From the NCBI GenBank assembly GCA_002440625.1, contig DJUV01000091.1, forward strand, positions 1 to 15,470: a stretch of DNA of 15,470 nucleotides. The letters are read 5' to 3'. The position numbers and the translations under genes are program-made. This DNA comes from Rhodobacteraceae bacterium UBA6273 (GTDB lineage: Bacteria > Pseudomonadota > Alphaproteobacteria > Rhodobacterales > Rhodobacteraceae). Shown piece after piece: positions 3,335-15,187 of this stretch; position 1 is the stretch's first letter; every line of letters begins with the position of its first letter. The notes beneath the pieces were generated by a model. That model was not told where the DNA came from. It saw nothing but the letters and a program-made list of their open reading frames with translations, and did no database searches.

Positions 3335-3679
3335 TCAAACCGGCGTCTGCTGGTGCGACATGAGCCGCCAGCCGCCGTCGTCTTTCACATAGGTCGAGGC
3401 GCAGAGCGCCCTGAGGATCGGCGCGTCGGGCCGTTCCGCCTCGGCCCGGTAGGCGAGGACGGCAACATCGCCCTTCAGGTTCACCGTGCGGTCGGCCATC
3501 ACAACAGATCGCCACTTGGGCTGGGCCGAGACGCCCTTCTTGGCGCTGTCACCCTGCAGGATGCCGGCCGGATATGCGAAGACGATGATCGCGCCGTCGG
3601 CCATGGTGCTGTGAAATGTCTCGCCGCCACCGAGCCAGAATTTCTCCTCGAGGCCCCAGAGATCGTCCTGCGTGCTCAT
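3335..3679 (-). CDS. Small NTF2-like / DUF4440-type protein
   Basis: A 114-residue cytosolic protein resembling the NTF2-like superfamily (SnoaL/DUF4440 type). An N-terminal helix with a WGLEEKFWLGG core is followed by alternating strands (GAIIVFAYPAG, WRSVVMADRTVNL, VAVLAYRAEAER) and the closing STYVKDDGGWRLMSHQQTPV typical of the fold. These cone-shaped folds hold small ligands or act as isomerases or association domains; no active-site set can be assigned. Two in-frame ATGs exist. A perfect GGAGG at 3687-3691 lies only 1 bp before the ATG at 3685 but 7 bp before the ATG at 3679, so the inner start (MSTQDDLW) is chosen. It follows the yjgR-like gene on the same strand after about 50 bp, with no terminator between them, so co-transcription is likely. 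Confidence 0.78.
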   Translation of the reverse strand: MSTQDDLWGLEEKFWLGGGETFHSTMADGAIIVFAYPAGILQGDSAKKGVSAQPKWRSVVMADRTVNLKGDVAVLAYRAEAERPDAPILRALCASTYVKDDGGWRLMSHQQTPV

Positions 3680-3729
3680 ATCCATACCTCCTAACGTGAC
3701 CTTGCAAGCTGTGCCGGGGCGGCTCCCGT

Positions 3730-5573: not shown

Positions 5574-5762
5574 GCCCCGCCCTCCGGCATCGCCGGGCGG
5601 CTCCGCGCCCCCGGCCGCTGGTCCCAGCCCCTCCACCTCTTACAGAACCGGAAACCGCTGCGGCAGGTTTGGCGTATTTCGCCATAGAGATGGCGGCGCC
5701 TGCAAGTGATCTGTCGCGATGCGCGGGCTAGCTCTGCTGCAGCGCAACAGCAAAGGTGCAGC
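5574..5762 (+). other. Leader region of the SDR-AraC unit
   Basis: GC-rich non-coding stretch between the sRNA terminator and the SDR gene. It contains a short inverted repeat, TGGCG-TATTT-CGCCA (5670-5684), which could be an operator for the downstream AraC-family regulator. I find no convincing -35/-10 pair. AAAGG at 5752-5756 is the probable ribosome binding site for the ATG at 5763. Confidence 0.35.
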
Positions 5763-6590
5763 ATGACCAGCAAGTCAAAACCCACGGCCCTCGTCACCGG
5801 CGCATCGTCCGGCATGGGCAAGAGCATCGCCGAGCGCCTGATCGCGGACGGCTACCTTGTCTATGCGGCCGCCCGCAACACCGACCGGATGGCCGACCTC
5901 GCCCGTCTGGGCGCCGTGCCGCTGAGAATGGATATCTCGAAGGAGGCGGATATCGTCGCCGCCGTCGCTGCCATCACCGAAAGATCTGGCGGCGTCGATG
6001 TGCTGGTGAACAACGCCGGCTACGGGCTTTATGGCCCGGTCGAGGAAATCGGGCTGGACGAGGCGCGCTATCAGTTCGAGGTCAACCTTTTCGGCGCTGC
6101 CCGCCTGACCCAGCTTTTGCTGCCCGCGATGCGGGCGAAGGGCAAGGGCACCATCGTCAACATCACGTCGATGGGCGGCAAGATCTACACGGTACTGGGC
6201 GCCTGGTATCACGCCACCAAGCACGCGCTGGAAGGCTGGTCCGACAGCCTGCGGCTGGAGCTTGAACCCTTCGGCATCAGGGTCGTGGTGGTCGAGCCGG
6301 GGCTGATCGAGACCGGCTTTGGCGCGGCGGCGTCGCAAGGCATTCTGGAACGCTCGGGCAGCGGCGCCTATGCCGGAGTGTCGAAAAGCGTCGCGGCCTC
6401 GATGGAACGCAGCTACGGCCACGGTCGGGGCACCGATCCCAAGGTCATCGCGGATGTGGTGGGTGAGGCGGTCAGGTCGCGGCGCCCCGGAACCCGCTAT
6501 GCCGCGGGGAAATATGCGAAGATGATGATCTGGGTCCGCAAGTGGCTGGGCGATCGCGCCTTCGACCGGCTGATCAAGAGCCAGATGTAG
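5763..6590 (+). CDS. Short-chain dehydrogenase/reductase (classical SDR)
   Basis: A 275-residue classical SDR that binds NAD(P)H on a Rossmann fold. It shows the cofactor motif TGASSGMG (12-19), NNAG (83-86), the catalytic Ser136 (NITSMGG) and Tyr149-x3-Lys153 (YHATK), and the PG..ET motif at 179-184. The Arg38 after the second strand (AAARNTDRM) suggests a preference for NADPH. The C-terminal part (GKYAKMMIWVRKWLGDRAFDRLI) resembles SDRs acting on lipid-like or hydrophobic substrates, but the substrate cannot be told. Met5763 is preferred because AAAGG lies 6 bp upstream and the protein then begins shortly before the first beta strand; an in-frame upstream start at 5706 would add a low-complexity extension without a ribosome site. 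The AraC-family gene follows after 19 bp. Confidence 0.88.
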   Translation: MTSKSKPTALVTGASSGMGKSIAERLIADGYLVYAAARNTDRMADLARLGAVPLRMDISKEADIVAAVAAITERSGGVDVLVNNAGYGLYGPVEEIGLDEARYQFEVNLFGAARLTQLLLPAMRAKGKGTIVNITSMGGKIYTVLGAWYHATKHALEGWSDSLRLELEPFGIRVVVVEPGLIETGFGAAASQGILERSGSGAYAGVSKSVAASMERSYGHGRGTDPKVIADVVGEAVRSRRPGTRYAAGKYAKMMIWVRKWLGDRAFDRLIKSQM

Positions 6591-7777: not shown

Positions 7778-7813
7778 CGCCCGGCACTTCGAATGCATCA
7801 ACGGAAAGACATC

Positions 7814-8506
7814 ATGGCCGCATTTCCCAAGACCCTGACGCTCATTCTGGCGCTGGCCGCAGGGCTGCCCGCCGTCGCGCAGGAAACCACGACTCCCGCC
7901 CCGGCGGCGGACGCCGCCGCCCAGCCCGCCGCGACCGGCGACGCCGCAGCCACGGCCGCTGCGCCCGACGACATCGGCAAGCCCTATGTTGCCGAGAAGT
8001 TCGGCGACTGGGATCTTCGTTGCGTCCGTACCGAGGATGGCGCCGATCCCTGCCAGCTTTACCAGCTCCTGAAGGAGAAGAACTCGGGCAACCCGGTGTC
8101 GGAGATCACGCTGGTCAACCTGCCTGAGGGCAGCAAGGTCGCTGTCGGCGCGACGATCATCACGCCCCTAGAGACGCTGCTGCTTGAACAGTTGAACTTC
8201 GCCATCGACACCGCCAAGCCCGTAGCCTACCCGTTCAGCTTCTGCACGCAGGTCGGCTGCGTTGCCCGTCTGGGCTTGACCGCCGAAGAGGTGGAAAAGC
8301 TGAAGAAGGGCAAGGTGGCTTCGGTCACGGTGGTGCCGGTTGCCAATCCGAACGCCAAGGTCATGGTCGAGGTTTCGCTGAACGGCTTCACCAAGGCGCT
8401 TGCGGCACAGAAGAAGTCGGAAGAGGCGCGCGCCGCCCTGGTCAAGCCTGCCACCGATGATCATGCCCCGGCGGAAGCTGCGCCCGCGGAAGCCGCGCCG
8501 CAGTAA
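7814..8506 (+). CDS. Invasion-associated locus B (IalB) family periplasmic protein
   Basis: A 230-residue exported protein of the IalB family, common in alphaproteobacteria. IalB itself is linked to erythrocyte invasion in Bartonella; in free-living relatives its role is unknown and pathogenicity should not be inferred. A Sec signal peptide covers residues 1-23 (MAAFPKTLTLILALAAGLPAVAQ). A low-complexity Ala/Pro linker runs to about 52. The conserved domain covers about 57-200, with GDWDLRC at 64-70 and four cysteines (70, 80, 144, 149) that could form two disulfides. The tail is Ala/Pro/Glu-rich. The ATG at 7814 is chosen because GGAAAG lies 5 bp upstream and the signal peptide then starts properly; the ATG at 7793 has no ribosome site. 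A UUCG-loop terminator follows. Confidence 0.87.
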   Translation: MAAFPKTLTLILALAAGLPAVAQETTTPAPAADAAAQPAATGDAAATAAAPDDIGKPYVAEKFGDWDLRCVRTEDGADPCQLYQLLKEKNSGNPVSEITLVNLPEGSKVAVGATIITPLETLLLEQLNFAIDTAKPVAYPFSFCTQVGCVARLGLTAEEVEKLKKGKVASVTVVPVANPNAKVMVEVSLNGFTKALAAQKKSEEARAALVKPATDDHAPAEAAPAEAAPQ

Positions 8507-8563: not shown

Positions 8564-9772
8564 TCAGGCGGCGCGCAGCGCCAGCACCGCGTTCAGCCCG
8601 CCGAAGGCGAAGGCGTTCGACAGGGCAGCCGTCACCTTCCGCTCCCGCGCCACGTTCGGCACCACATCAAGCGCGCATTCCGGGTCCGGCTCCTCATAGC
8701 CTATGGTGGGGGCAATCACCCCGTCCCGCAGCGCCATGATGCACGCCAGAAGCTCGATGGCACCGGTGCCGCCGATGACATGGCCGTGCATCGACTTGGT
8801 GGAAGAGATCATCAGCCTGTCGGCGTGATGGCCGAAGGCATGGGCGACGGCGGCGCATTCGGTCTTGTCATTGGCGGCGGTGCCAGTGCCATGGGCGTTG
8901 ACATAGCCCACCTCCTCTGGCGCCAGCCGCGCATCCCTCAGCGCCCCGGCAATTGCGCGCTGCGCGCCGGCCTGGCTCGGCATCACGATGTCGGCCGCGT
9001 CCGAGGTCATCGAGAACCCCGCGACCTCGGCGAGGATCTCCGCCCCCCGGGCGCGGGCGTGGTCCCAGTCCTCGAAGACAAAGACGCCTGCCCCCTCGCC
9101 CTGCACCATGCCGTTTCGGTTGGCGCTGAAGGGGCGGCAGGCATCCTTGGACATGACGCGCAGCCCTTCCCAGGCCTTGATGCCGCCGAAGCAGAGCATC
9201 GCCTCCGACCCACCGGTAATGATGGCCCGGGCGCCACCCGAACGCACCATCTGGAAGGCGAGCCCCATCGCGTGGTTCGATGAGGCGCAGGCGGTGGCCA
9301 CGGTGAACGAAGGCCCCCTGAGCGACCATTCCATGCTGACATGACTGGCGGCGGCGTTGTTCATCAGTTTTGGCACCACGAAGGGATGGACGCGGTTCTT
9401 CCCCTCTTCATAGACGCTGCGGTAGTTCTCGTCCGAGGTCATGACTCCGCCCCCGGCAGTGCCGAGGATCACGCCGCAGTCAAAGCCCATCTTGCCGCGA
9501 AAATCGAGGCCGGACTGCTCCACCGCCTGTTTGGCCGCCAGCATGGTGAACTGGGTGAAACGGTCGTAGAGCGAGATTTCCTGACGATTGAAATGCTGTT
9601 CGGCATCCCAGCCCCGGACCTGCCCGCCGATGCGGACCGAAAGCCTTTCGACGTCGCGGAACTCCAGCGGGCCGATCCCGCAGCGCCCTTCCCGCATCGC
9701 GGCGAGGGTGGTCGGAACATCATGGCCAAGGGCGTTGATCGTGCCCGCCCCGGTGATGGCGACGCGCCTCAT
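8564..9772 (-). CDS. Beta-ketoacyl-ACP synthase, FabF/KAS II type
   Basis: A 402-residue condensing enzyme that elongates an acyl chain held on acyl carrier protein, giving 3-oxoacyl-ACP. The KAS I/II catalytic triad is complete: Cys162 (TACASSN), His294 (NAHGTGT) and His331 (STKSMHGHVIGGTGA), with Lys326. The C-terminal SNAFAFGGLNAVL Gly-rich motif is intact. The His-Gly-His variant SMHGH differs from the housekeeping FabF SMTGH and recalls specialised synthases such as NodE-like or secondary-lipid enzymes. Its ATG overlaps the stop of the ACP gene by 4 bp (ATGA), a sign of translational coupling, and it is the last gene of the LDT-lpxD-acp-KS series. No ketoreductase or dehydratase is nearby. 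It is unlikely to be the housekeeping fabF, which usually sits with fabG and acpP. Confidence 0.88.
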   Translation of the reverse strand: MRRVAITGAGTINALGHDVPTTLAAMREGRCGIGPLEFRDVERLSVRIGGQVRGWDAEQHFNRQEISLYDRFTQFTMLAAKQAVEQSGLDFRGKMGFDCGVILGTAGGGVMTSDENYRSVYEEGKNRVHPFVVPKLMNNAAASHVSMEWSLRGPSFTVATACASSNHAMGLAFQMVRSGGARAIITGGSEAMLCFGGIKAWEGLRVMSKDACRPFSANRNGMVQGEGAGVFVFEDWDHARARGAEILAEVAGFSMTSDAADIVMPSQAGAQRAIAGALRDARLAPEEVGYVNAHGTGTAANDKTECAAVAHAFGHHADRLMISSTKSMHGHVIGGTGAIELLACIMALRDGVIAPTIGYEEPDPECALDVVPNVARERKVTAALSNAFAFGGLNAVLALRAA

Positions 9773-10044
9773 GCAGCTTCTTTTTCGGCCACGAGCTTTT
9801 CGACGGCTCCGATGATCGCGGCAACCGAGGATATGTCGAAATCGCTTTCCGAAGGCTCGTTGGCGTTGAACGGGACCGATATGTCGAATTCCTCCTCGAA
9901 GGCGAAGATCGATTCCACAAGGCCGAGGCTGTCGATGCCAAGCTCGGTCAGCGACATTTCCGGTCCGACCTGATCGCGTTCCAGAACCGCCTGTTCGGCG
10001 ATGATCGCGATGACCCGGTCACGGATGCTGGGATTTTCGGCCAT
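9769..10044 (-). CDS. Acyl carrier protein, dedicated paralogue
   Basis: A 91-residue acidic protein with the phosphopantetheine attachment motif GIDSLGLVE, Ser39 being the modified residue. It is longer than housekeeping AcpP (about 78 residues) and diverges after helix II (FEEEFDISVPFNANEPSESDFDISSVAAIIGAVEKLVAEKEAA), which points to a specialised carrier. AGGAG lies about 5 bp before the ATG, inside the end of lpxD, and only 1 bp separates the lpxD stop from this start. The stop overlaps the ketosynthase start by 4 bp. This packing suggests that carrier, synthase and LpxD are made in balanced amounts and act on the same acyl chain. AcpXL of rhizobia is a functional parallel, but this protein is not assigned to that family. 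Confidence 0.88.
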   Translation of the reverse strand: MAENPSIRDRVIAIIAEQAVLERDQVGPEMSLTELGIDSLGLVESIFAFEEEFDISVPFNANEPSESDFDISSVAAIIGAVEKLVAEKEAA

Positions 10045-10045
10045 G

Positions 10046-11155
10046 TCACTCCTCTCCCTTGCTGCCCGCCTTCTGCATGAAGGATGTAACGGCTTCGCGA
10101 AGCTCTGCCACCTGGGCGTAGAGCCGGGGCAGACGGCGGATGTTCTTCTGCGCCTCGATATGCTGGTCCATCTTCAATGCCGGATAGCCGAGGATGACCC
10201 GACCCGCTGGCACGTTCGTGAACATCTTGGTCGCACCGCCGGCGATTACGTCATTGCCGACGAAGATGTTGTCACCGACGCCGCACTGGCCGCCAAGGAC
10301 CACGCGGTCGCCGATCCGCGACGATCCGGCGATGCCGACCTGACCGCAGAGAAGCGTGTCGCGGCCCACTTCGACGTTGTGGCCGACATGGACAAGGTTG
10401 TCGAGCTTGGTGCCCGAGCCGATCTTCGTCGCCCGGATCGTGCCGCGGTCGATGGTCACGTTGGCGCCGATCTCGACATCGTCGCCGATCTCCACAGTGC
10501 CGATCGAGTGAATCCGAAGCCAGCTCTGCGCCCTGACCTCGGAGCGTTCGCCAAGCGTCTGGCGGATTTCCTCGACGCCTGATTTCTCTGGCGTGACGAA
10601 GGAAAAGCCGTCCGAGCCGATGACAGCTCCGGGCTGGATGAAGACGCGGTCTCCGATCTTGACCCGCGCCCCGATCCGGGCACCCGAATGGATCAGGGCA
10701 TCGGCGCCGATACTGGTGCCTTCGGCGATATGGACATGGGGGGCGATACGGGCATTGGCGCCAATCTCGGCCCCCTCGCCAATCACCACGAAGGGACCGA
10801 TGGCGGCACCCGGTCCGATCCTCGCGTCAGGGTCGATGATGGCCGAGGGGTGGATACCCGGCGCGATGCGCGGCCCTTGATCGAAGGCGCGGGTCACGCC
10901 CGACATGGCGAGCCTTGGCCGCCCGACGAAGATCGCGGCCTGAAGGCCAAGCGCCCGCCAGTCGGCACCGTCCCAGAGGACGGCAGCACGGGCGCGGCCC
11001 TTCGCCAGCCCCTCGGCATAGGCGGGCTTCATGGCAAGCGCGAGATCATCCGGGCCGGCCATCGCCGGTTCGGCGGCGCCCGCCACCCGTAGATCGGTGT
11101 CGCCTTCTGCCCGCGCATCGAGCGCGCGGGCGATCTCGGCAATGCTGTGGGACAT
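10046..11155 (-). CDS. lpxD: UDP-3-O-acylglucosamine N-acyltransferase LpxD
   Basis: A 369-residue left-handed beta-helix enzyme of lipid A synthesis. LpxD moves a 3-substituted acyl chain from ACP to the 2-amino group of UDP-3-O-acyl-glucosamine in the cytosol. Residues 1-95 form the uridine-binding N-terminal domain. Residues about 96-320 show hexapeptide repeats ([22 protein letters not shown] and onward). GSDGFSF (180-186) and [14 protein letters not shown] (251-264) match LpxD motifs, with His259 aligning to the catalytic His239 of E. coli. A C-terminal helix ends the protein. An upstream TTG frame to 11188 exists, but the ATG at 11155 gives the standard N-terminus ([12 protein letters not shown]). 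It lies 53 bp after the L,D-transpeptidase stop and 1 bp before the ACP gene rather than in a bamA-fabZ-lpxA cluster. Whether it is the only lpxD cannot be told. Confidence 0.9.
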
Positions 11156-11172: not shown

Positions 11173-11205
11173 CCAATGGGCGCGGCAAGCGCCCTTTCGC
11201 ATTGG
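11173..11205 (-). repeat. Intercistronic stem-loop between L,D-transpeptidase and lpxD
   Basis: GGGCGC (11178-11183) pairs with GCGCCC (11189-11194) around a 5-base loop, and an outer CCAAT/ATTGG (11173-11177 with 11201-11205) extends it past a bulge. No T tract follows on the minus strand, so it is more likely an mRNA processing or stability element than a full terminator. Confidence 0.45.
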
Positions 11206-11208
11206 GAT

Positions 11209-12825
11209 TTAACCCTGAACAACCGGCAAAACCACCCCGGCGTCTTGCAGCGCGTCGAATATCCGCTGATCGCGTCCATAGACATCACGCCGGTAGTCGA
11301 TCCGGCCCTTCGCCGTCGGCCAGGCGGTGAAATAGACCAGATGCACCGGCACTGGCACCTCCAGACGCAGCGAAGTCTCCGCCTTGGTCTCCAGATGCGC
11401 ACGGAATTCGCCGACCGGGTCGCTGCTTTGCGGGGCGAGGAGCGTATAGGCAAATTCGAAGGGTGCGCCGAGGCGGACACACCCGTGGCTGAAGGCCCTG
11501 ATCTCTTTCTCGAAAAGGGATTTCGAAGGCGTATCATGAAGATAGATGTTCCACTTGTTGGGGAACATGAACTTCACGAGGCCAAGCGCATTGTCGTCCG
11601 ATGGCGGCTGCGAGATCGAGAACGGGAAGCTCTTCGCCGTATACCGGGTGAAATCGGTCGCGTTGCGGTCCACGACGCGGCCCCGCCGGTCGACGATCTT
11701 GAGATGCGACACCGCGTTCCGGTTCTTCTGCAGCATCGGCAGATATTCCTTCACGGTGATCGACCGCGGCACATTCCACGTCGGATTGATCACCATGTAT
11801 TCCATCTGGTCCGAGAATTCCGGGGTGCGACGGTCTTCCTGGCTCATGCCGACCACCGTGACCGTCTCGAACGTCACCTTGCCGTTGTCGATGATCTTGG
11901 CGGTGAAGTCCGGAATGTTGACCCAGATGTGCCGCTCGCCGAGCTTGGTGCCGTTCATCCAGCGGATGCGCTCCAGCGCCACCAGCACCGATTTCAGCCG
12001 GTCGACCGGCTCAAGATTGAGAAGTGTGATGGTCGCCTCGGCCGCCACCCCGTCCGGGGTAAGGCCGTTGTCGCGCTGGAACTCCTGCACCGCCTTCTGG
12101 ATGGTGGCGTCAAAGTCCTTCGTCGCCGTGCGCCCGAGGTAGCCCATGCGGATCAGGCGGTCGCGCAGTGCGACCACTGCCGCGCCGCTGGCGCCCGGCG
12201 CCAGCCTGTCGCCGCCGATCTTTGGCCCCCAGCCGCCCTCGGCCATCGCCGCCTCAAGATCGCCCTTGGCTTTCAGAAGCTGGGCATATTGCGGGGCATC
12301 CGGCGCAAGCTTTGCCAGATACTGAGCCGGGGTCGCGGACATGGCAAAGCCCGCGATCGTCGCCTGCGGCTCGCGCAGCACGATTTCGCGGACGATGCCG
12401 GAATCGACACGCTTGGGTTCAACCACCCCCGACCCGACATCCTTCGCATAGGTGAGGAAGGCCGCCGAGACCGCCGCTTCGAGTCTTGCGCGCTGACGTT
12501 CCGACGCAACCGTCCCGAAGCGGGCCCTGAGCCCCTCGGCATCGTATCGCGCGGCAGGAAGCCCCTGCGTGCCCGCGCGGTCAAGCGCCGCGAAGAAAGC
12601 GCCGCGCCGTCCGGCATCGGCGGCCGTCGTCCAGATGGGCGCATAGTCCCTGGCACCATAGAACGCGGCCAGCGCCGGGGTCGCGGCGGCGGCTTCGGCC
12701 AGGGCCTGGCGGAAGGCGAGCGATTCTTCGGCGAGGCCGGGCTGCGCCGCTCCCCAGGCCATCAGGACCGAAGCGGCAATCGTTCTGAGAAATGCCGGGC
12801 GGAAGCGGCGTTCAACAAGCGTCAT
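11209..12825 (-). CDS. L,D-transpeptidase, YcbB/LdtD type
   Basis: A 538-residue exported enzyme expected to form 3-3 (mDAP-mDAP) peptidoglycan cross-links in the periplasm. A signal peptide or anchor covers residues 1-32 (basic start, then [21 protein letters not shown]). A YcbB-like scaffold domain covers about 35-200, a PG_binding_1 domain about 205-270 ([32 protein letters not shown]) and the YkuD catalytic domain about 298-480. Its signature is HDTPS (His430) and FSHGCVRL with His447 and nucleophile Cys449. Length and order match E. coli YcbB. A GTG start at 12861 would add 12 residues before the signal; ATG 12825 gives the better N-terminus. The divergent neighbour is a YcbK-like endopeptidase, the same pairing as ycbB-ycbK in E. 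coli. Downstream is lpxD. Confidence 0.88.
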
Positions 12826-13135
12826 CTGCAATCCAGGATCGTCAGGTTTCTGTCCCGCCACAGTTCCAGTATCGCGCGATTCAGTCCATGCTTTGGCGGC
12901 CTCGGAAGAGGCCCTGGTGCTGCTGCGTCGCTATTTCGCAACACCACCGCGAAAATCAGTGCAAACCGGCCACAGCCACGAGCTTTCAGCAAATTATCGC
13001 CGACTGCGCTTGAAACGCCCGCCTGTGGACAATTGTTCGTTGGCGCGGGAATCATCTTGTGTCATAAAACCGGTGCACTTGGGGAAATGGACACGAGCCG
13101 CATCAAGCGGCCCACTTGGGACAGGCGTCAGCGCT
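12826..13135. other. Divergent promoter region between the two wall-enzyme genes
   Basis: 310 bp without a gene. It contains a hairpin GGCCTC-GGAA-GAGGCC (12898-12913) in the leader of the L,D-transpeptidase, a possible minus-strand -10 GATAAT (12993-12998) without a good -35, the plus-strand promoter described separately, a small hairpin GCCGC-ATCAA-GCGGC (13097-13111) in the endopeptidase leader, and a direct repeat CACTTGGG (13076-13083 and 13113-13120). Confidence 0.4.
13040..13068 (+). promoter_or_regulatory. Putative promoter of the MepK-like gene
   Basis: TTGGCG (13040-13045), 17-bp spacer, CATAAA (13063-13068); each hexamer keeps 4 of 6 consensus bases. The predicted start near 13075 gives a leader of about 60 nt containing the GCCGC/GCGGC hairpin. 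Confidence 0.4.
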
Positions 13136-13705
13136 ATGACTGAACTTGGTCAGACAGGACTTAACCGTCGTAGTTTGCTCAGAATTTTTGCCGCGACCTC
13201 AATCATCGCGGCGCCGACCATGTCGAATGCGTTTGCGCTTTTGCGCGGTGCAGGAGATGTACGGCGCATCCGGATGTATTCCGGCCGGACCGGCGAAACG
13301 CTCGACACGATCTACTGGATCGAGGGCAACTACATCCCCGAGGCCCTGAACGAGATTACCTATTTCATGCGCGACTGGCGGCAGGATGCCACCAAGGACG
13401 TTGATCCGCGCACCATCGACATTGCCGCGGCCTCGCATCGCCTGCTTGAGGTCAAGGAGCCCTACATGCTCCTGTCCGGCTATCGCACTGCCAAGACCAA
13501 TGCGATGCTCCGTTCGTCGTCGCGCGGCGTCGCCCGCAATTCCCTGCACATGAAGGCTCAGGCCGCGGACCTTCGCCTGCGGTCGCGCTCCGTCGCACAG
13601 ATCTACCGCGCCGCGGCTGCCTGTGAGGCCGGCGGCGTCGGCAAGTATTCACGCTCCAACTTCGTCCACATGGACTCTGGCCCGATCCGCACCTGGGGCG
13701 GCTGA
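13136..13705 (+). CDS. YcbK/MepK-like murein endopeptidase (DUF882, M15-type)
   Basis: A 189-residue exported zinc-peptidase-like protein. The N-terminus carries a twin-arginine-like signal (LNRRSLLRIFAATSIIAAPTMSNA, residues 9-32), so Tat export is possible. The DUF882 domain fills the rest: SGYRTAKTN (114-122), then the M15-type metal ligands His138 and Asp145 (H-x6-D in SLHMKAQAADLRL) and His178 (NFVHMDSG). E. coli YcbK (MepK) cleaves mDAP-mDAP cross-links, so the expected role is to cut the bonds made by L,D-transpeptidases, one of which is divergently encoded next door. An upstream open frame reaches 12893, but the ATG at 13136 places the signal peptide correctly. GGGACAGG lies about 10 bp before the start. 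A terminator follows. Confidence 0.87.
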   Translation: MTELGQTGLNRRSLLRIFAATSIIAAPTMSNAFALLRGAGDVRRIRMYSGRTGETLDTIYWIEGNYIPEALNEITYFMRDWRQDATKDVDPRTIDIAAASHRLLEVKEPYMLLSGYRTAKTNAMLRSSSRGVARNSLHMKAQAADLRLRSRSVAQIYRAAAACEAGGVGKYSRSNFVHMDSGPIRTWGG

Positions 13706-13845: not shown

Positions 13846-15174
13846 TCAATCGGCGAGGGCGTAGATTTCCCAACTGTCGGGAATTCCCTTCATCCTTTTT
13901 TGCCCGACAAAGGTGAATGACTGGCCGGAACCAACGGCCAGGTCCTTCACAGTTCTGGAGACATAGGTGGTGCCCGGGGTCGCCTCCGCGGCAATCCGCG
14001 CCGCCAGATGCACGGCCAGACCGCTCAGGTCCTCGCCGCGCCGCTCGCATTCCCCGGTGTGGATTCCGGCCCGCATCTCCAGACCATGTGCCCTGGCATC
14101 GCGCGCCAGGGTCCGTGCGCATTCAATCGCTGCGGTCGGTCCGACGAAGGCCAGCATGTGGCCATCGCCGGTGTGCTTTACGACCTGCCCCCCGAGTGCC
14201 GCAGCATGTCGCGCTGCGCTGGCGTCCAGATGTTCCAGAACCATGCGCCAGCGATCATCCCCCATGGCGCTCAACGCGGCGGTGGAATTGACGATGTCTG
14301 TCATCATGACGGTGACAAGCGCCCGGTCGACTCTTGCGGTGGATCGCCTGCCGGTGAGGAATTCCTCCACTTCCGCGATCAGCCGGTCCTGGTCGCCGTA
14401 CCAGGGGATATGATCGTTGCCCGGCAGCAGGCGAAACTCGGCGCCGGGGATATGCTCTGCCAGATAGCGGCCTTCGTCGGCAGGGTGCCAAAGATCGCCC
14501 TCCCGATGCAGCACAAGCGTTGGCGCCCGTATCGCGGGAAGGATCGCGCGGATGTCGATCTCGTTGTTCAGCCGGGTAATCAGTTCGGCCGCATGCGGAC
14601 TGGCGGAAAACCTAAGGTAGGCGCCAAACCAGTCCCGGACGCTCGGGTTCTGCGCCACGCTTGGCGCGCCTTCGTCAAGGTCAACCGGCTTGCCCCAGCT
14701 GTGGATGAACGACGAGACAAAGGCTTCCAGCTCTTCCGGGGTTCGCCCCCAGGGATAGTCGGGCGCCCTGGCGCGGCGCGCGAATGAGCCGCAGAGCACC
14801 AGCGCACTGACACGTTCGGGATGCGTGGCAGCAAAGTACGATGCCATGCTGCCACCCTCCGAAACTCCGAAAAGCGCCGCTTGCCGTGACCCCACCGCAT
14901 CAAGGACGGCCCTGATATCCTCGACCCTTTGATCGAGCGTCGGGAAACCGACGTTCCGGTCCGACATCCCGGTGCCGCGTTTGTCAAAGCAGATCAGGCG
15001 GGCGAAGCGGCTGAGTTTGGTCAGGAATCGCGAATACTCGGGGCTTTCCCAGGCATATTCGATATTGCTGAGCCAGCCCTGGGCATAGAGCAGGTCGATC
15101 GGCCCGTCGCCGACAACCTGGTAGCCGATCGAGATTTCACCGCAACGGGCGTAACGTGTCTCAGGTCGCTGCAT
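13846..15174 (-). CDS. Alpha/beta-hydrolase fused to class III adenylate/guanylate cyclase
   Basis: About 442 residues in two domains; numbering here counts from an alternative GTG at 15180. Residues 10-278 are an alpha/beta-hydrolase with nucleophile elbow GVSEGG (Ser107), Asp229 and His257 completing a plausible triad. Residues 286-442 are a class III cyclase homology domain: metal ligands Asp295 (MMTDIVNST) and Asp339 (KHTGDGHM), base-selecting Lys335 and Asp384, and Arg395 (AARI). The transition-state Asn is replaced by His391 (GLAVHLAARI). The architecture matches mycobacterial Rv1900c, an active adenylyl cyclase. The Lys/Asp pair favours ATP, so cAMP is the likely product. No signal peptide or membrane segment is seen. 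The ATG at 15174 is preferred, with GCGGG 5 bp upstream; GTG 15180 remains possible. No adjacent cAMP receptor gene is present. Confidence 0.88.
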   Translation of the reverse strand: MQRPETRYARCGEISIGYQVVGDGPIDLLYAQGWLSNIEYAWESPEYSRFLTKLSRFARLICFDKRGTGMSDRNVGFPTLDQRVEDIRAVLDAVGSRQAALFGVSEGGSMASYFAATHPERVSALVLCGSFARRARAPDYPWGRTPEELEAFVSSFIHSWGKPVDLDEGAPSVAQNPSVRDWFGAYLRFSASPHAAELITRLNNEIDIRAILPAIRAPTLVLHREGDLWHPADEGRYLAEHIPGAEFRLLPGNDHIPWYGDQDRLIAEVEEFLTGRRSTARVDRALVTVMMTDIVNSTAALSAMGDDRWRMVLEHLDASAARHAAALGGQVVKHTGDGHMLAFVGPTAAIECARTLARDARAHGLEMRAGIHTGECERRGEDLSGLAVHLAARIAAEATPGTTYVSRTVKDLAVGSGQSFTFVGQKRMKGIPDSWEIYALAD

Positions 15175-15187
15175 GGCCACCCGCCAA

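Follow-up and report, generated by a model that had tools for sequence, protein, structure and literature searches.

A divergent LpxD encoded with its own acyl carrier protein and a NodE-related ketosynthase in Rhodobacteraceae: a candidate acyl-supply cassette for lipid A

A 15,470-nucleotide stretch of contig DJUV01000091.1 (GCA_002440625.1) from Rhodobacteraceae bacterium UBA6273, hereafter the window, contains a three-gene unit on the minus strand in which lpxD, for the acyltransferase of the lipid A amide position, is followed by genes for an acyl carrier protein (ACP) and a beta-ketoacyl-ACP synthase (KS). The lpxD gene (10046-11155; 369 amino acids from an ATG, with a longer TTG start at 11188 as a possible alternative) encodes a UDP-3-O-acylglucosamine N-acyltransferase of a divergent class, marked by a long loop and the changes F41L and H276N (Escherichia coli numbering throughout for LpxD). 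The ACP (9769-10044; 91 amino acids), the private carrier of the unit, has a DSL phosphopantetheine site and a PFNAN motif. The KS (8564-9772; 402 amino acids) is related to NodE and keeps Cys162-His294-His331 and Lys326 intact. An earlier note, made from the letters of the window alone, had described lpxD and the ACP gene as 1 bp apart and the ACP and KS genes as overlapping by 4 bp, and this spacing is borne out; its statement that no ketoreductase is present is correct within the operon; elsewhere in the window, on the strand opposite to the trio, 5706-6590 encodes a short-chain dehydrogenase (PF00106). This dehydrogenase has no match in the 19-kb relative loci L316 and L317.

The LpxD scores above the curated cut-offs of the full-length models TIGR01853 (284.4 against 242.5 bits) and NF002060 (312.4 against 207), and below that of the Pfam N-terminal domain PF04613 (25.3 bits over 68 of 70 positions, cut-off 30.8). 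The shortfall fits the altered uridine-side residue F41, and since the full-length models are passed we retain the name LpxD. For the KS, the score exceeds the cut-off in the broad FabF subfamily model NF005589 (422.7 against 387 bits) and falls short of it in the KAS II (FabF equivalog) model TIGR03150 (446.1 against 493.75), the Cys-His-His set being nonetheless present. The ACP passes PF00550 (36.9 bits, cut-off 20.8) and falls well below the cut-offs of the housekeeping ACP models; a separate housekeeping AcpP is encoded on contig C353 of the assembly. The only full LpxD in this assembly, which is 85% complete, is that of the trio, and the canonical slot reads rseP-bamA-skp-fabZ-lpxA-lpxI-lpxB, without lpxD. 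No lpxC was found in the assembly, which we take to reflect an assembly gap given its incompleteness and the presence of lpxA, lpxB and lpxD.

The observation is larger than first stated: the trio is a hallmark of Rhodobacteraceae and has an LpxD class of its own. The locus was read in each of 149 genomes sampled at the order level, all of which belong to Rhodobacteraceae, and LpxD, ACP and KS genes follow one another in this order on a single strand in 147 of them, a constancy that excludes chance. LpxD was detected in 148 of the 149, with one match only in 146 of these 148, and KS in all 149. In genome G134 LpxD lies elsewhere, unlinked, and L,D-transpeptidase-ACP-KS is kept; G141 has no LpxD. 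Residue counts for the family accordingly use 147 genomes, with G134 (Asn at position 276) counted separately, and neither the duplicates L205 and L206 nor the fragmentary locus L204 are included. The spacing seen in the window is not universal: with heuristic start choice, the gap between LpxD and ACP has a median of 33 bp (147 genomes), and that between ACP and KS a median of 3 bp, being exactly -4 in 34 of 146 genomes. Among the best 80 of 484 relatives on named contigs, a set from which Rhodobacter sphaeroides, Rhodobacter capsulatus, Spiribacter and Halorhodospira are absent, all three genes are present in 77 and an L,D-transpeptidase in 75. The trio is also carried by Paracoccus versutus DSM 582 (L234), a species with 3-oxo lipid A. 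Because the trio is nearly universal in Rhodobacteraceae, a survey of whether it tracks with 3-oxo species, as the earlier note had proposed, is uninformative within this family.

In a phylogenetic tree the LpxDs of the family and the class members from outside it form one clade against canonical LpxDs (support 0.945). Between E. coli positions 183 and 198 they have 30-38 residues (32-38 in Rhodobacteraceae), as against 13-15 in 33 of 33 canonical LpxDs, a set that leans canonical and consists of the best-scoring 30 loci of 105 genomes together with L077, L078 and L084. In the E. coli enzyme an elongated loop helps to form the pocket for the 3-O-acyl chain of the acceptor, according to the portion of PMC6286764 that was available, and the insertion of about 19 residues would sit in or beside this loop. 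The same portion of that paper gives His239 as the catalytic residue, D232 as a contact of the 3-hydroxyl, and F41 and H276 as touching the UDP side. His239 and Asp232 are both kept in 147 of 147 family LpxDs; F41 is replaced in all of them (Leu in 122, Met in 21, Ile in 3, Val in 1), and H276 has become Asn in 136, with His in the other 11 and in all five trios outside the family. The acceptor side has thus been altered more than the contact with the 3-position. At the chain-length position, M290 in E. coli, 132 of the 147 have none of Gly, Ala, Ser and Asn (Lys in 91), and canonical LpxDs have Gly in 30 of 33. In this assembly the lpxD of the trio also lies outside the canonical slot, which runs from skp/bamA to fabZ-lpxA and in which LpxD adjoins FabZ in 30 of the 30 best-scoring canonical loci. 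G122 has, on another contig and with no ACP-KS nearby, an additional LpxD of this class in which position 276 is His (L082 4173-5264).

Two candidate sequence markers were rejected. H276N is no proof of 3-oxo use, as the residue sits at the UDP pyrophosphate and H276A cuts kcat 32-fold (in the same portion of PMC6286764); it also fails to track ACP-KS, the loci L240 and L245, which have no local ACP-KS, having Asn, L249 having His, and the outside trios having His. The other 3-hydroxyl contact, Q236, does not mark the trio either, being His in 79, Gln in 58, Met in 8 and Thr in 2 of the 147, and Gln in the Paracoccus plasmid copy.

The catalytic residues of the KS are intact in 160 of 160 aligned rows (147 family genomes, 11 other loci, a partial E. 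coli FabF and the window repeated), and the ACP serine is present in 147 of 147. In a KS tree with an imposed FabF root and a small FabF set, 33 non-FabF sequences including NodE are set apart from 7 FabF sequences with a support of 0.88. This non-FabF group holds the family KSs, those of ACP-KS loci outside the family, NodE, and KSs of Xanthomonas sacchari and Sphingobium; the family KSs and those of the outside ACP-KS loci are grouped with a support of 0.999. Among named plasmids the best KS matches are in Paracoccus and Pseudorhodobacter, followed at about 50% identity by KSs of Xanthomonas sacchari, Sinorhizobium and Rhizobium. In the rhizobial loci an ACP precedes the NodE-like KS in five of five read, and in three of them the KS is near nodBC and genes of NodA-family N-acyltransferases. 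Of the remaining loci, one lies near nodZ and the other is the S. meliloti pair annotated hsnA-hsnB, which we take to be NodF/NodE; neither is near NodA. A plasmid of Xanthomonas sacchari (L325 5518-8218) has a GNAT gene on the opposite strand, an ACP and a NodE-like KS beside an aminotransferase.

Beyond Rhodobacteraceae, a class-level sample of 105 genomes was used, with 2 from this family and one each from 103 other alphaproteobacterial families. LpxD-ACP-KS with the same LpxD class is present in 5 of the 103 (G210, G223, G194, G233 and G220), which is a lower bound because the loci were picked for low LpxD or high KS scores and other low scorers were left out. The same LpxD class occurs alone, without ACP-KS, in G204, G217 and G183. 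In G210 the unit takes the form LpxB-LpxD-ACP-KS (L067 4657-8953) and is additional to a canonical lpxD-fabZ-lpxA-lpxI-lpxB set (L078). ACP-KS without an adjacent LpxD was seen in two genomes, G205 and G237. In G237 (L071 4693-9349) ACP-KS stands against genes for an E1-type dehydrogenase, a transketolase-like protein and a protein that combines lipoyl and alpha/beta-hydrolase domains, with LpxD on another contig; these neighbours are another partner for a cassette of the ACP-KS type.

With respect to lipid A chemistry, the available text of PMC5923411 describes amide-linked 3-oxo-14:0 in Spiribacter salinus and cites it also for Ectothiorhodospira halophila, both gammaproteobacteria; by its account, 3-oxo-14:0 escaped the usual fatty-acid procedure and was revealed by acid methanolysis. 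It also puts into print what the earlier note had stated, namely that the lipid A of R. sphaeroides and R. capsulatus has 3-oxo chains. Terms for oxo or keto groups have no match in PMC4039514, PMC8185171 and PMC9844088, and no paper on an lpxD-acp-KS unit was found in the portion of the open-access literature that was available, a scope that mostly leaves out subscription journals.

With some hesitation, we favour a reading in which ACP-KS is a NodF/NodE-like acyl-supply cassette that has LpxD as its main client, possibly delivers a 3-oxo-C14 chain, and serves a further client as well. The KS would condense malonyl-ACP with an acyl chain on the private ACP, probably extending C12 to C14, and the co-translated LpxD would take the chain from this ACP, by a predicted contact between the two, for the amide position of lipid A. 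Where lipid A carries 3-oxo-14:0, as in R. sphaeroides and R. capsulatus, transfer before reduction would be the simplest route and would give a 3-oxo product; in other species, or part of the time, the housekeeping FabG may reduce the chain first. ACP-KS would also feed at least one other acyltransferase, and such a putative second client would explain the survival of ACP-KS when lipid A genes are lost. The private supply line proposed in the earlier note gains support from the carrier and synthase beside LpxD across the family and in five others, and from the kinship of the KS with NodE; the 3-oxo product is a good hypothesis, still unproven. In favour of the reading as a whole, ACP and KS also co-diverge, their distances correlating with an r of 0.71. 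A more specific version can be entertained as a possibility: a NodFE-like pair would have been recruited by the divergent LpxD, which would have replaced the canonical lpxD in the Rhodobacteraceae, and would deliver an unreduced 3-oxo-tetradecanoyl chain. Recruitment, and not later oxidation, would then have made the TLR4-antagonist chain, and a second client in amide-lipid synthesis would outlive lipid A.

Several observations weigh against the favoured reading. The 3-hydroxyl contact Asp232 is universally conserved in the family, so that no feature of the sequence points specifically to the use of 3-oxo chains and nothing in LpxD demands one, and a review (PMC7956469), in the part available, gives the amide chains of R. 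sphaeroides as 3-OH-14:0 only. The genes are also lost from each other's company in both directions. Of 395 family genomes, 7 lack LpxC (the UBA6273 assembly, G515, G340, G141, G525, G385 and G548), and in four of these, G141, G525, G385 and G548 from three genera, the locus has lost lpxD and retains L,D-transpeptidase-ACP-KS. Conversely, L240, L245 and L249 hold LpxD with no ACP-KS nearby; these are metagenome-assembled genomes, and such genomes without a local ACP-KS or LpxD may carry them elsewhere. In G300 and G515 (genus g224) LpxD and KS are present with the ACP missing between them (L319 5010-7499 and L320). ACP-KS without an adjacent LpxD occurs in G205, from another family. Finally, the distance correlation of ACP with LpxD is only 0.39 and not above that of LpxD with KS (0.41).

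Of the LpxC-less genomes, G515 has a sister, G300, in which LpxC is present, and the KS matches of G340 are only housekeeping-like (37% and 33%). LpxB and LpxD were not found genome-wide in G141, and LpxC and LpxB were not found genome-wide in G205, where the LpxD model gives only a weak match (E 1.5e-4); in G525, G385 and G548 LpxC was checked genome-wide and LpxD at the locus only. The KSs of G141, G525, G385 and G548 fall in three separate places of the KS tree, and all four retain the four catalytic residues. Between G141 and G525, which are of the same genus, dN/dS is 0.18 for ACP (dS 1.35, near saturation) and 0.187 for KS, the latter just above the range of 0.013-0.186 in eight control pairs with LpxD (a ninth being saturated); between G385 and G548 it is 0.300 for KS. 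ACP-KS in LpxC-less lineages is under purifying selection, which may be relaxed, and it probably has work apart from LpxD, these data being evidence and not proof. In its strict form, the proposal of the earlier note has ACP-KS supplying LpxD exclusively; on the evidence of gene retention this form is contradicted, ACP-KS persisting in genomes that have no lpxC and no lpxD at the locus, and LpxD persisting without a local ACP-KS.

This retention leads to the rival that survives best, which we nevertheless regard as rather unlikely. Here ACP-KS would provide long or special chains for amide-linked lipids in general, chiefly to aminolipid acyltransferases of the OlsB/GlsB type; its product would be reduced to 3-hydroxyacyl, and the 3-oxo chain of lipid A would arise otherwise, by LpxD accepting 3-oxoacyl-AcpP or by later oxidation. 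Along with the persistence of ACP-KS in genomes without lpxC, it has in its favour that all 10 genomes tested encode OlsB-like PF13444 proteins, among them G141 and G205, which lack LpxC and LpxB, and that in G014 and G075 a PF13444 match lies about 7.5 kb from lpxD. However, PF13444 has no negative case among these ten genomes, its matches in the other genomes tested either lie on other contigs or are separated by about 31 kb or more from lpxD or ACP-KS, and several distant families show the linkage of LpxD to ACP-KS. The OlsB-like proteins also make aminolipids a candidate for the second client under the favoured reading.

The surroundings of the trio bear on the improbable alternative that the linkage is positional only, with ACP-KS serving an unrelated pathway. 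Directly upstream of lpxD is the L,D-transpeptidase gene (11209-12861, minus), a common neighbour of the trio, and next to it a divergent gene for a MepK-type peptidoglycan L,D-endopeptidase (DUF882; 12893-13705, plus), whose start at 12893 is probably set too far upstream. A gene for an IalB-domain protein (7793-8506, plus) lies downstream of the KS and converges with it; it and the MepK-type gene are present in relatives too. The block MepK, L,D-transpeptidase, lpxD, ACP, KS, IalB, HerA is largely kept in the wider loci read, and such a frozen block, from which LpxD or ACP-KS can be missing without disturbing the rest, would suit mere position, as would the weak co-divergence of LpxD with ACP-KS. 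On the other hand, the adjacency recurs in the five other families with no L,D-transpeptidase match beside the trio, and the reading frames overlap or nearly do so in many genomes. Still less probable is a strict, exclusive 3-oxoacyl route for LpxD with ACP-KS as decaying relics in lineages without lipid A genes, which the composition of the trio, the known 3-oxo chain of Rhodobacter and the raised KS ratios could suggest, but which must contend with ratios far below 1, intact catalytic residues in all four LpxC-less genomes and retention in three genera. Elsewhere in the window, 13846-15180 (minus) encodes a single protein that joins an alpha/beta hydrolase domain to a guanylate/adenylate cyclase catalytic domain, and 3335-3685 (minus), between CorC-like and HerA genes, encodes a 116-residue protein with no NCBIfam match at the default threshold.

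The TLR4 antagonist Eritoran was modelled on Rhodobacter lipid A with its amide-linked 3-oxo chain, and the origin of this chain now becomes testable at the level of single genes. The survey defines an LpxD class and ties it to a supply cassette resembling that of Nod factors; in lineages without lpxC this cassette probably has a second job.

Compared with known systems, the LpxD of the trio shares with canonical LpxDs a TIGR01853 score over the cut-off, His239 and Asp232, and differs from them in all of the short 183-198 segment, F41, H276 and the location in bamA-skp-lpxD-fabZ-lpxA. An AcpXL-type system was rejected, the ACP scoring 35.1 against a cut-off of 83 for NF005079, presumably the AcpXL model. 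The rhizobial AcpXL cluster includes fabZ, a second KS and an LpxXL-type acyltransferase, and no fabZ, second KS or LpxXL-like acyltransferase was seen among the window genes scanned. The likeness is confined to a special ACP serving an acyl chain of lipid A, AcpXL being named as a special ACP in the available part of PMC9386255. The NodF-NodE-NodA system likewise has a dedicated ACP and a lone KS near an N-acyltransferase, its KS being 45-50% identical to that of the trio. NodA N-acylates deacetylated glucosamine with a chain from the private carrier NodF and NodE. The chains made by NodFE carry an alpha,beta-unsaturation and no 3-oxo group. Their reduction and dehydration is the work of housekeeping enzymes, and hence a missing ketoreductase gene is no evidence for a 3-oxo product. 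In contrast to the trio, the acyltransferase there is NodA and the product is a secreted signal; no NodA-like protein was matched among the window genes scanned, and LpxD occupies that place. The ACP of the trio has 24-29% identity to NodF as against 38-39% to AcpP, so that no kinship with NodF is apparent. We therefore do not class the trio as a NodF system; by analogy, however, LpxD-ACP-KS would work like NodA-NodF-NodE, with a carrier and a synthase of its own beside an N-acyltransferase.

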